64,000 nt of DNA from assembly GCA_902800525.1 (NCBI GenBank), contig CADCEV010000014.1, positions 25,122 through 89,121 of the forward strand, in the 5' to 3' direction. A program made the translations under genes and the position numbers. The notes below the pieces were generated by a model that was given only the letters and a program-made list of their open reading frames with translations, searched no databases and was not told the origin of the DNA. The DNA is from an uncultured Bacteroidales bacterium. GTDB taxonomy: Bacteria > Bacteroidota > Bacteroidia > Bacteroidales > Paludibacteraceae. This document shows positions 22,137 through 60,306 of the stretch, in pieces. Numbering within the stretch: position 1 is the stretch's first letter; every line of letters begins with the position of its first letter.

Positions 22137-23126
22137 TTATTGTAATTTAGAAGTTAAAGACTTGATAATAGGTTTGGCTTTTTGCCGGTTGTAGAGGATT
22201 TCGTACATGGCGTCAACGATCGGCAGCGCTACTTTCATCCGTTGGTTCGCCTCATAAATGGCTTTGGTGCCATAATAGCCTTCGGCTACCATCTCCATCT
22301 CCATTTGCGCCGCTTTGACCGAATAGCCGAGTCCGAGCATCTGTCCGAACTGCCTGTTACGGCTGAACTGCGAATAACCGGTAACGAGCACGTCGCCCAA
22401 ATAACCGCTCATGGTGATGTCGCGCGGCACATTGCTCATCGCGGTTGCAAATCGCTGGATCTCCTGAATAGCGTTGCTCAGCAATACGGCTTGGAAGTTA
22501 TCGCCGTAGTGAAGTGCCTGACACATACCTGCCGCGATGGCGTAGATGTTTTTCATCACCGAACTGTACTCCAAGCCGATGACATCGGAGGAAACAGCGG
22601 TTTGCACGTACGGCGTCTGGAACAATTTCGCCCACACTTCCGCGTTCGGCCGGTTCTCGCAACCGATGGTGAGGTAACTGAGGCGCTCCAACGCAATCTC
22701 CTCCGCGTGACACGGACCGGCGATGACGCCTAATTGGTCAAACGGAATGCGGAAACGGTTGTGCAGATAATCGGTGATGATCACGTTTTCATCGGGGATC
22801 ATACCTTTCACGGCGGAGATGACCACTTTATGGGTCATGTCACGGCGGATTTTTGTCAATGTCTGCTTGACATATGGCGATGGAATCGCAAGAATCAGCA
22901 CGTCGGATTGCGCTACCGTTTGGTTGATATCCGACGAGAAATGAATCCGTCCGACGTCGAAACTGGCGGCTCCAAGATAGGTCGGGTTCTTGCCGGTTGC
23001 GATGAACTCATCGATCACCTCTTGCCGGCGGATGAACCAGTTGATCTCGCCTTGGTTCTGCATGACGATTTTTGCCAACGCCGTCGCCCATGACCCGGAA
23101 CCGAGAATAGCTACTTTTCTATACAT
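22137..23126 (-). CDS. gpsA: Glycerol-3-phosphate dehydrogenase [NAD(P)+]
   Basis: Makes sn-glycerol-3-phosphate for phospholipids from dihydroxyacetone phosphate. 329 aa from the ATG at 23126; an upstream TTG three codons earlier lies in a micro-repeat and is not needed. NAD-binding loop [10 protein letters not shown] at 9-18, then SAVKGM near 106, the GPCHAEEI block near 137 and catalytic Lys in [12 protein letters not shown]. The start sits at the edge of a 7-nt-period repeat that also supplies the lysS stop. Confidence 0.95.
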
Positions 23127-23157
23127 AATTATCAATTATCAATTGTCAATTATCCAT
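23124..23157. repeat. 7-nt micro-repeat between lysS and gpsA
   Basis: Units of the type atcaatt/gtcaatt, about four in a row. On the minus strand they encode the lysS stop and run up to the gpsA ATG. Confidence 0.85.
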
Positions 23158-24739
23158 TGACTTCCGGTTTCATAGTGGGGAAGAGTAGTACCTCTTGGAT
23201 TGTCGGCTGTCCGGTCATGAGGATTGCCAGACGGTCGATACCGATACCGATACCGGATGTCGGCGGCATACCATATTCCAGCGCGCGCATAAAGTCGTGG
23301 TCGATCACCATTGCCTCATCGTCACCTTTATCCGCCAGTTTCATCTGCTCCACGAAACGGTTGTACTGGTCGATCGGGTCGTTGAGCTCCGAGTATGCGT
23401 TTGCCAGCTCTTTGCCGTTCACCATCAGCTCAAAACGCTCGGTAAGACCGGGTTTCGAACGGTGCATCTTCGTCAGCGGAGACATCTCAACAGGGTAGTC
23501 GGTGATGAACGTCGGCTGAATGAAAGTGCCCTCGCAGGTCTCGCCGAAAATCTCGTCAATCAGCTTGCCTTTGCCCATATGCTCGGTATCTTCCACGCCG
23601 AGTTTCTTTGCCTCCACGCGGATCTCGTCCTCGCTCATCGAAGCCAAATCCAAACCTGTCTTTTCCTTGATAGCATCGAGGATCGGCAATCTTCTGTAAG
23701 GAGCCTTGAAATCGATCTCGTTTTCGCCCACTTTCACTTTCGTCGTACCGTTTACAGCAATCGCAATCTTCTCCAACAGTTGCTCCGTGAAGCCCATCAT
23801 CCAGTTGTAATCCTTGTATTGCACATACAGCTCCATGCAGGTGAACTCCGGGTTGTGACTGCGGTCCATGCCCTCGTTGCGGAAGTTACGGCCGATCTCA
23901 TACACACCCTCAAAACCGCCGACAATCAGTCGTTTCAGATAAAGTTCGGTGGCGATACGCAGGTACATATCTACGTCCAGCGAGTTATGATGCGTAATGA
24001 ACGGACGCGCACTTGCGCCGCCGGCAATCTGCTGCAAAATCGGGGTCTCTACCTCGGTATAACCTGCCTCGTCAAACACCTGACGCATCGTGCGCAGAAT
24101 GGTAGCGCGTTTGAGGAATGTGTCCTTAACGCCCTCATTTACAACCAAATCCACATATCGCTGGCGGTAACGTTGCTCCGGATCATTAAATCCGTCATAA
24201 GCCACACCGTCTTTGTATTTTACAATCGGCAGCGGTTTCAAACTCTTTGCCAGCACGGTCAGTTTCTTTGCATGTACGCTGATCTCGCCCATTTGTGTGC
24301 GGAAAACGAATCCCTCAATGCCGATGAAATCGCCGATATCGAGCAGTTTCTTGAATACCACATTGTACATCTGTTGCTCTACGGTCGTAACTTGTTCGCC
24401 CTCAGCAACGGGCTCTTGTATATCATCTCTCGACACATACACCTGAATACGTCCTTTCGAGTCTTGAATCTCAATGAAAGAAGCCTTGCCCATGATGCGT
24501 TTGGACATCAGACGACCTGCAATACGCACCGTGTCTCCTGTGTGCCATTCCTTCACGGATTCATTCTCCCCCTTTTGAGAAGGGGGCAGGGGGGATGTCT
24601 CATCTACAAACCCGGCTTTGATCTCGGTTGAATAACCGGTTACTTCATACTCGGCGGCAGGATACGGATCTATGCCCATGTCGCGCATCGTCTGCAAACT
24701 CTGTCGCCGTACTAATTCTTGTTCGCTTAAATTTTCCAT
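23150..24739 (-). CDS. lysS: Lysyl-tRNA synthetase (class II)
   Basis: Charges tRNA-Lys. 529 aa. N-terminal OB-fold anticodon-binding domain (about 65-185), then the class II core with [12 protein letters not shown], the motif 2 [20 protein letters not shown] and motif 3 [12 protein letters not shown] near the end. Residues 48-62 ([15 protein letters not shown]) come from a G-rich palindromic repeat that has landed in frame ahead of the OB fold. The stop is inside a 7-nt micro-repeat. First gene of lysS-gpsA-pgi, with a promoter at 24787-24818. Confidence 0.95.
24566..24596. repeat. G-rich palindromic repeat inside lysS
   Basis: About 31 nt: CTCCCCCTTTTGAGAAGGGG followed by GCAGGGGGGAT. It can form a C-rich/G-rich hairpin and is read in frame as [13 protein letters not shown] residues 48-58 of LysS. 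Confidence 0.75.
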
Positions 24740-60232: not shown

Positions 60233-60245
60233 TTGTGGCATGATA

Positions 60246-60306
60246 TAACGATTTAACAGTTTAACAGCTTAACAGTTTAACGGTTTAACAATTTAACAGT
60301 TTAACG
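60246..60306. repeat. 8-nt micro-repeat, seven units, between hypB and the oxidoreductase
   Basis: Units tttaacag, cttaacag, tttaacgg and tttaacaa with strict 8 nt period. Minus strand: the hypB stop lies in the first unit and the array leads to the next start. Confidence 0.9.

Follow-up and report, generated by a model that had tools for sequence, protein, structure and literature searches.

Introduction

Tandem arrays with a unit of seven nucleotides (nt) have been described in several bacteria. TAACTGA direct repeats are known from marine Beggiatoaceae, Cyanobacteria and five Bacteroidetes (MacGregor 2015, PMC4679880). In this study, we analysed 64,000 nt of an uncultured Bacteroidales bacterium (contig CADCEV010000014.1; this whole stretch is called the window), which carries A/T-rich arrays of 7- and 8-nt units at gene junctions and inside genes. 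The two systems are alike in that heptamer arrays lie at junctions, some overlap the upstream stop codon, stops are present in all frames, and Shine-Dalgarno sites are few; some arrays also lie within genes, in the TAACTGA case mostly near the gene ends (PMC4679880). In addition, indels of the TAACTGA repeats between two Cyanothece strains are mostly 7-nt steps (PMC4679880). However, the TAACTGA repeats are described as one unit, mostly forward and just before starts (PMC4679880), whereas here there are many unit families, also of 8 nt, and the arrays lie more often by the upstream stop, with an even orientation (9 vs 9) past the stop. Furthermore, unit type is exchanged here at the same site and arrays sit mid-way in conserved enzymes, unlike in the TAACTGA system.

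Other heterogeneous intergenic heptamers are the GGGAATC repeats of Xanthomonas and the GGGGA(C/T)T repeats of Nostoc (PMC4692102). Like the arrays of this study, they lie mostly between aligned genes and nearer the 5′ neighbour, and their length and sequence vary between close relatives. However, they are described as G-rich and quadruplex-prone, they belong to one unit family, and most of them are shared by two species at the same gene pairs (PMC4692102), whereas the arrays here are A/T-rich and many sites differ in presence or unit at about 94-95% identity. With bacterial heptamer long simple sequence repeats, the arrays of this study share above-chance 7-nt units, enrichment between co-oriented genes and whole-unit length variation.

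Another comparison is with the Rickettsia palindromic elements, which were reportedly described by Ogata in 2000. They are dispersed short repeats that can sit in existing coding genes, with hot spots considered possible (PMC3767692), and here too in-frame arrays inside coding genes have element-free orthologs. In contrast, the Rickettsia elements are palindromes of 100-150 bp (PMC3767692), while the arrays in this window are 20-64-nt tandem repeats. Whole-unit copy-number change is also a trait of phase-variable contingency loci (see also PMC4679880). However, junction arrays with stops in all three frames (74/92 of the co-oriented arrays described below) cannot switch the upstream frame, although arrays in coding genes could in principle.

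We propose that the arrays are dispersed, restless 7-/8-nt micro-arrays of a gut Bacteroidales genus, which are copied between loci and kept where they are harmless. We regard this as the best explanation and give it about an even chance of being right. The features that are new here are the interchangeable unit families, the replacement of unit type at about 5-6% divergence, the landing sites in coding genes that are shared with palindromic elements, and the scale. An earlier note on this DNA had spoken of an unrecognised process, which is too strong for heptamer arrays generally, as these are known elsewhere, but the papers listed by our literature search showed no account of such turnover.

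Arrays in the window and shuffle controls

Arrays were detected using Tandem Repeats Finder (TRF) and our own lag-match detector, and gene identities in the window were checked by Pfam. The sample of this genome (G000) was 464 kb, namely the window plus 20 stretches of 20 kb, from an assembly of 2.39 Mb in 33 contigs (92.7% complete). The relatives were metagenome-assembled genomes (MAGs) or draft contigs, and the named relatives nearest by ThyA come from rumen and gut metagenomes and bear the label Paludibacteraceae or Bacteroidales. Gene calls gave a coding fraction of 0.77, with short genes missed and some starts misplaced. Gaps longer than 500 nt were excluded (longer than 600 nt in the counts of 240 junctions and of 92 arrays).

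In the 464 kb, we found 80 arrays: 59 of period 7, 15 of period 8, 3 of period 14 and 3 of period 16. Between 23 and 61 kb of the window, the strict detector found 13 period-7 and 2 period-8 arrays, compared with 0.0 in 20 order-2 Markov shuffles. In 91,004 nt of intergenic sequence (gaps of 31-500 nt), there were 79 period-7 and 27 period-8 arrays, and the shuffle means for the two periods were 0.00/0.00 (dinucleotide) and 0.05/0.00 (order 3), with 20 shuffles each. Shuffled intergenic sequence of the same composition thus holds essentially no such arrays. The intergenic sequence examined also held no arrays of periods 4-6 or 12.

The period-7 and period-8 arrays listed by the earlier note are present where it placed them or a few bases off, as judged by TRF, the printed sequences and our detector. 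Those at 36.2 kb were found by TRF (scores 32 and 44), but they are weak and fall under the threshold of our own detector. The arrays of the window are given below with their state in relatives (G021, G059, L005-L010).

23127-23158, minus strand: 7-mer array AATTATC/AATTGTC, contains the lysS stop TAA (23150-23152); identical in G021
29387-29418, plus strand: 7-mer array CTATCAA between the genes 26398-29367 and 29420-30997; no array in G021
32988-33021, plus strand: 7/14-mer array ATAATTT between the GtrA-like and Na/Pi cotransporter genes
36244-36266, minus strand: weak 7-mer array CTTTCAA before a short-chain dehydrogenase gene; TRF score 32, below our own detector's threshold
36284-36312, minus strand: weak 7-mer array CTCTCAA, overlaps the stop of the umuC-like gene (36311-36313)
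38638-38688, plus strand: mixed 7/8-mer array (period 15) immediately upstream of the DUF1295 gene
39200-39240, plus strand: 7-mer array AATTGTC within the DUF1295 coding gene, encodes EWSIVNYQLSIINYC; equal length in G021
44422-44441, minus strand: 7-mer array AATTATC, contains the aroE stop TGA (44434-44436)
46012-46048, minus strand: 8-mer array GTTAAACT, contains the ettA stop TAA (46037-46039); a 7-mer array instead in G059
47714-47743, minus strand: 7-mer array AATTATC, contains the tex stop TGA (47733-47735); a 10-mer array instead in G021, with a hairpin by eye
48686-48708, minus strand: 7-mer array CTGATGG within the tex coding gene
49837-49870, minus strand: 7-mer array TAATTTT, contains the folA stop TAA (49857-49859); no array in G021, where the tex start differs too
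50356-50383, minus strand: 7-mer array AATTAAA, contains the thyA stop TAA (50379-50381); a GTATGA stop/start overlap instead in L005-L010
51180-51205, minus strand: 7-mer array TAGTTTA, start-side half of an inverted array pair in the OmpA-thyA spacer; this spacer differs in the four relatives compared
51272-51301, minus strand: 7-mer array CTCTCAA, stop-side half of the inverted pair, overlaps the OmpA-PD40 stop TAG (51300-51302)
53385-53409, minus strand: 7-mer array AATTATC, contains the DUF1015 stop TGA (53404-53406); longer by one unit in G021
53800-53831, minus strand: weak 7-mer array within the DUF1015 gene, third landing site
53965-54002, minus strand: 7-mer array within the DUF1015 gene (aa 243-256), second landing site
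54416-54445, minus strand: 7-mer array within the DUF1015 gene (aa 95-105), first landing site; no array in G021
54735-54784, minus strand: 8/16-mer array CGTTTTAA, contains the bactofilin stop TAG (54775-54777); longer by one unit in G021
57017-57053, minus strand: 7-mer array AATTATC, contains the hypA stop TGA (57036-57038); an 8-mer array instead in G021
60242-60305, minus strand: 8-mer array TTTAACAG, contains the hypB-like stop TAA (60301-60303); longer by 25 nt in G021
60633-60664, minus strand: 7-mer array ATTGTGA within the hypB-like coding gene; no array in G021

Turnover between close relatives

This genome and G021 have a mean identity of 94.2% in megablast blocks over 400 nt (216,368 nt). 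The comparison was limited to the periods 7, 8, 14 and 16 and to arrays whose orthologous site was found in the other genome; in this genome, these were 49 of the 80. Among these 49, the relative had an array of equal length at 16 sites, one with a whole-unit difference at 7, another length difference at 6, a different array at 8 and none at 12. From the side of G021 (42 arrays), the corresponding numbers were 13, 6, 5, 9 and 9. The relative therefore has no array or one of another kind at 20/49 and 18/42 sites, about four in ten, at a divergence of about 5-6%, and array length and unit both vary between the two genomes. Meanwhile, the flanks were 88-100% identical at the 19 window sites (same periods) where both were found, and at the orthologous junctions the species L005-L013 have either overlapping stop and start codons, a spacer free of arrays, or an array that differs in unit or period.

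In 18 of the 21 rows in which the partner has no array, it holds 6-88 nt of its own unaligned sequence (0 or less in the other 3). This looks like replacement and not like clean insertion.

The same comparison bears on a rival explanation, in which each array arises independently by polymerase slippage over 7-8 nt in A/T-rich spacer, and the sharing of units mirrors composition and local preference. The whole-unit length changes (7/49 and 6/42 sites) agree with it, and so does the dominance of period 7, as in other long-repeat bacteria in which polymerase slippage was proposed (Mrazek 2007 as cited in PMC4679880 and PMC4692102). On the other hand, slippage has to account for the arrays within genes and for their shared units.

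Arrays inside coding genes

The arrays had been described as a feature of gene boundaries. This holds at the junctions, but five arrays of the window, which the earlier note had missed, are inside genes: 39200 (DUF1295), 48686 (tex), 53965 and 54416 (DUF1015) and 60633 (hypB-like), plus the weaker one at 53800 (DUF1015). Because identical kinds of array are found within coding genes, the idea that the intergenic gap is itself the target finds no support.

DUF1015 has three landing sites. At the second, compared in 15 genomes, a 7-mer array is present in this genome, G021 and L007; an in-frame palindromic element of the CCCTCCC...GGGAGGG type (by eye) in G055, G022 and L006; and a different duplicated element in L010. 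No array was detected there in the remaining 8 of the 15 genomes, two of which (L009 and L011) resemble decayed arrays. Palindromic repeats of this type were also seen in frame in G021, at the C3:70605 and C3:29144 sites. In addition, a stretch of AroE near residues 40-49 has arrays in 5 of 11 genomes (G055, G022, L007, L008 and L010), this genome not among them.

For trimming, we selected 18 sites from the 21 'no array' rows and 3 from the 17 'different array' rows (21 in all), and the resulting patches include diverged native bases. For the 11 coding patches, the net length change ranged from -12 to +27 nt and was a multiple of 3 in 10. For instance, the patches were 76 vs 67 nt in DUF1015, 78 vs 63 nt in the hypB-like gene, 94 vs 67 nt at C1:9386 and 66 vs 78 nt at C3:29144. 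The eleventh (C25:34414) is at a gene end, and the frame stops inside the patch. As 7 and 8 are not multiples of 3, addition of a single 7-nt unit would break the frame, and slippage would need frameshifted intermediates in coding arrays. Given the ten in-frame patches, arrival as a block is a simpler account than growth unit by unit, and the arrays probably arrive as ready-made blocks.

Unit repertoire and signs of copying

A set of 92 arrays was collected from co-oriented gaps of this genome, L005-L012 and pieces of five congeners; related genomes are pooled in it and some arrays are orthologous. AATTATC was the unit in 15/92 and AAAAATT in 10/92, and AATT was contained in 48/92. The pattern (AATTNNN)3AATT had 304 matches in this genome (counted per register), compared with 4 for its TTAA mirror, a backward control. 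In 100 congeners, there were 0-257 matches each, with at least one in 88 of the 101 genomes searched. Across the order, the pattern was patchily present in 164/295 genomes, and some genomes favour the TTAA mirror.

The copying test used 61 arrays with 7- or 14-nt units from this genome, with one of two tandem duplicate arrays in C3 excluded. In 25 pairs, the two arrays had a non-periodic string of 26 nt or more in common; in 20 unit shuffles, the number of such pairs averaged 10.3 and never exceeded 16. An order of variant units that is common to different loci beyond unit shuffles points to copying. Such an order speaks against independent slippage, as do the frequent sharing of AATTATC and the excess of AATT over TTAA. 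Together with the frame argument, these results lead us to consider slippage unlikely as the origin of the arrays.

Also in favour of copying, at the third DUF1015 site an identical 36-nt 8-mer array is found in G021 and G059, with 90-nt flanks that match at 70 and 65 positions. An exact search with arrays of at least 28 nt from this genome, G021 and G055 against L005-L084, G022, G059 and G042 gave one match, a G021 array in L007 with unlike flanks.

Genomic placement and start signals

For the placement survey, we took 1.70 Mb of array-rich sequence belonging to the genus or to its near relatives (this genome, G021, G055, G022, G059, G034, G044, G075, L005, L006, L007, L009 and L010); the genomes were chosen for array richness, so the densities are not genus averages, and L008, L011, L012, G042 and array-poor genomes were left out. 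Co-oriented gaps held 161 arrays of 7/8 nt in 69,553 nt (2.31 per kb), convergent gaps 6 in 7,661 nt (0.78 per kb; 14.0 expected), divergent gaps 5 in 17,154 nt (0.29 per kb; 31.3 expected), and coding sequence 79 in 1,378,308 nt (0.057 per kb). In this genome alone, the densities of the three kinds of gap were 2.12, 0.60 and 0.22 per kb (45, 1 and 1 arrays), and a second set that included L008, L011, L012 and G042 gave 2.52, 0.55 and 0.30. A 7/8-nt micro-array was present at 43 of 240 co-oriented junctions sampled. These densities, and the orthologous junctions that are often array-free or hold another array, bear out the earlier suggestion that some process repeatedly writes short arrays into co-oriented junctions and replaces the spacer and last codons.

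Among gaps no shorter than 60 nt, an array was found in the 60 nt that follow the stop in 71/362 co-oriented and 5/70 convergent cases (P = 0.010), and in the 60 nt that precede the start in 28/362 co-oriented and 2/142 divergent cases (P = 0.006), with both P values made too small by kinship. The arrays are thus commoner by the upstream stop than by the next start (71 vs 28 of the 362 gaps).

The host group had been supposed to be without Shine-Dalgarno signals, and indeed none was seen (8.7% of 334 starts vs 6.0% in a control stretch). In such a host, the arrays might be functional leaders, A/T-rich and unstructured, that aid initiation of the next gene and are selected in operons. The strong excess in co-oriented gaps is in line with this, as is the A+T content at -20..-1 (0.81 with arrays vs 0.66 without). 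Furthermore, initiation in F. johnsoniae is tuned by mRNA structure and an A at -3 (PMC6847099), and the similar repeats of Beggiatoaceae were proposed as translational signals (PMC4679880). However, the arrays are found more often by the upstream stop than by the next start (predicted starts being rougher than stops), many of the same junctions are array-free in close relatives, copies within coding genes cannot be leaders, and among 334 ATG starts only 32 are preceded by an array in -40..-1. We consider selected leaders quite improbable, even more so than independent slippage. Nevertheless, given their excess in co-oriented gaps, the arrays may still have a role in operons.

Stop codons and a proposed survival filter

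As claimed before, the stop codon is within an array in all ten named genes (lysS, aroE, ettA, tex, folA, thyA, DUF1015, bactofilin, hypA and hypB), and partial overlap was additionally found in the OmpA-PD40 and umuC-like genes. Four of the C-terminal endings read from the arrays (WNN, VDN, EIKN and IIDN) are correct, while lysS ends in EVNG. In the 92 co-oriented-gap arrays, the array start was within -12 to +10 nt of the upstream stop in 64, and the upstream stop was contained in 50. Stops in all three frames were present on the sense strand in 74/92 and on the antisense strand in 39/92.

This bias in favour of the sense strand (48 to 14 in the raw count) is partly circular, since an array that lacks stops would be read through where a gene ends, and it would then count as coding. 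When the arrays were split by position relative to the stop, the sense strand was stop-richer in 31 and poorer in 1 of the 50 arrays that contain the stop, the 14 arrays starting within the stop codon gave 8 vs 4, and the 28 starting past it gave 9 vs 9. Stop codons as a selected function were set aside after this split. The bias is a survival filter and not proof of function, and it is present only where the array contains the stop. The suggested importance for translational coupling finds no support either: the bias is confined to stop-containing arrays, the arrays are more often by the upstream stop than by the next start, and array-bearing and array-free junctions interchange among close relatives.

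Proposed mechanism and candidate machinery

Under the explanation that we prefer, in which restless micro-arrays are copied between loci, a new array would land in a single event, as a complete block that already has about three or more units. The block would be a copy of an existing array, either at another locus of the same genome or in a related strain, and some of the native bases where it lands would be overwritten. Template switching or conversion via short A/T homologies such as AATT may be the most probable route. Later, the array would change by slippage, often in whole-unit steps, to which the observed length changes would belong. At co-oriented junctions, arrays might survive because a stop-bearing unit, if its period is not divisible by 3, blocks every reading frame within about 21-24 nt; in proteins, only in-frame, stop-free versions in non-conserved stretches would last. 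The supply of stop codons and the altered last residues would then be consequences of the filter, and a regulatory role would not be needed.

A stronger proposal is that dedicated machinery copies ready-made heptamer or octamer blocks in one step, within and across species, which would make the arrays a new class of non-coding mobile micro-repeat that constantly reshapes protein ends, loops and operon junctions and thereby proteomes. We hold this to be doubtful. A related possibility is that the arrays are written by a mobile element with array-like ends, by a reverse transcriptase or by an end-joining system. In its favour, the OmpA-thyA spacer (51173-51302) is an inverted array pair around a core with a 79% copy at G000:C1:13947-14065, and some compound arrays contain hairpins by eye. 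However, a reverse transcriptase (RVT_1) had no match in this genome (assembly 92.7% complete, so that a gene could have been missed) or in 20 of the 25 genomes tested; matches were found in 4/13 array-rich and 1/12 array-poor genomes. Telomerase-like synthesis by reverse transcriptase was thus rejected as a necessary cause. End joining with Ku was rejected as well (Ku in 0/25 genomes), and no link with IS200/RAYT was seen: Y1 transposase had matches in 6/13 array-rich vs 5/12 array-poor genomes, and the match in this genome is below the cut-off. Here, array-poor is defined by the AATT pattern only, and 2 of the 7 array-poor genomes sampled have 7/8-nt arrays at one or more per 10 kb. In addition, the replacement pattern in 18 of 21 'no array' rows does not look like clean insertion (flank sharing was examined at one spacer). 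All three kinds of writer taken together seem very unlikely to us.

Several observations weigh against copying between loci with survival where harmless. Some partners scored as having no array carry decayed or sub-threshold arrays (C19:2929 and C26:3553), and the window spacer 51180/51272 was counted twice, with a short array there in G021. Part of the replacement pattern could be due to recombination between strains, and the first DUF1015 array is common to this genome and G055, not to the closer G021. In the copying test, shorter strings narrowly exceed the shuffles (at least 16 nt: 75 vs a maximum of 71), and where a few variants are common, copying and slippage among them are not fully distinguished by unit shuffles. 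Wide copying across species has little direct support; no direct donor-target event was seen, and no enzyme was identified among the families searched. The depletion in divergent (5 vs 31.3) and convergent gaps (6 vs 14.0) exceeds simple tolerance unless promoters and terminators explain it. Finally, the kin genomes pooled in the 92-array and placement counts share arrays, which makes the P values optimistic.

Other features of the window

The first 23 kb had been reported as free of arrays. This is right for A/T-type arrays of period 7 or 8, of which there are none at threshold, but one GC-rich 8-mer array lies at 18639. Positions 4100-18600 have a low GC content (0.434) and encode two DNA methyltransferases, a PD-(D/E)XK nuclease and a WYL protein near a tRNA-Thr gene; no A/T period-7/8 array reached the detector threshold there. 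This stretch is probably an acquired island, which may account for part of the emptiness. It also has five 9-nt arrays clustered between predicted genes at 8316-8523.

Arrays of 11 nt at 26340-26394 and 42264-42301 (ACGTAAACGAG and CGAAAAACCCG types) are of a different kind, and similar ones occur elsewhere in this genome, e.g., TTTCGCGGGTA. Arrays of 9-11 nt were set aside, as they show no clear preference for co-oriented gaps.

In the spacer at 51173-51302, two inverted 7-mer arrays flank a core of about 60 nt. Besides the copy in C1, there is one at G000:C18:29553-29700, and dispersed matches have 74-79% identity. This one spacer is possibly a small element with array ends, and it might resemble a miniature inverted-repeat transposable element.

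The tex gene (47733-49832) has arrays on both flanks and sits between folA and ettA here and in L012. It comes after folA in L011, and no tex was found in the 20-kb loci L005-L010. At 53306-53393, the ATG of OmpA-PD40 seems to be lost at its conserved place, and the array side offers TTG starts; the gene caller placed the start about 29 codons further in.

Biological meaning

The usual view is that gene junctions and protein ends of bacteria evolve slowly and are under selection, in contrast with the turnover found here. If confirmed, the arrays would represent a directly testable mutation process that moves whole arrays. This process would explain odd C-termini and inserts of Bacteroidales proteins, and it would be a caution against reading such spacers as regulatory sites.

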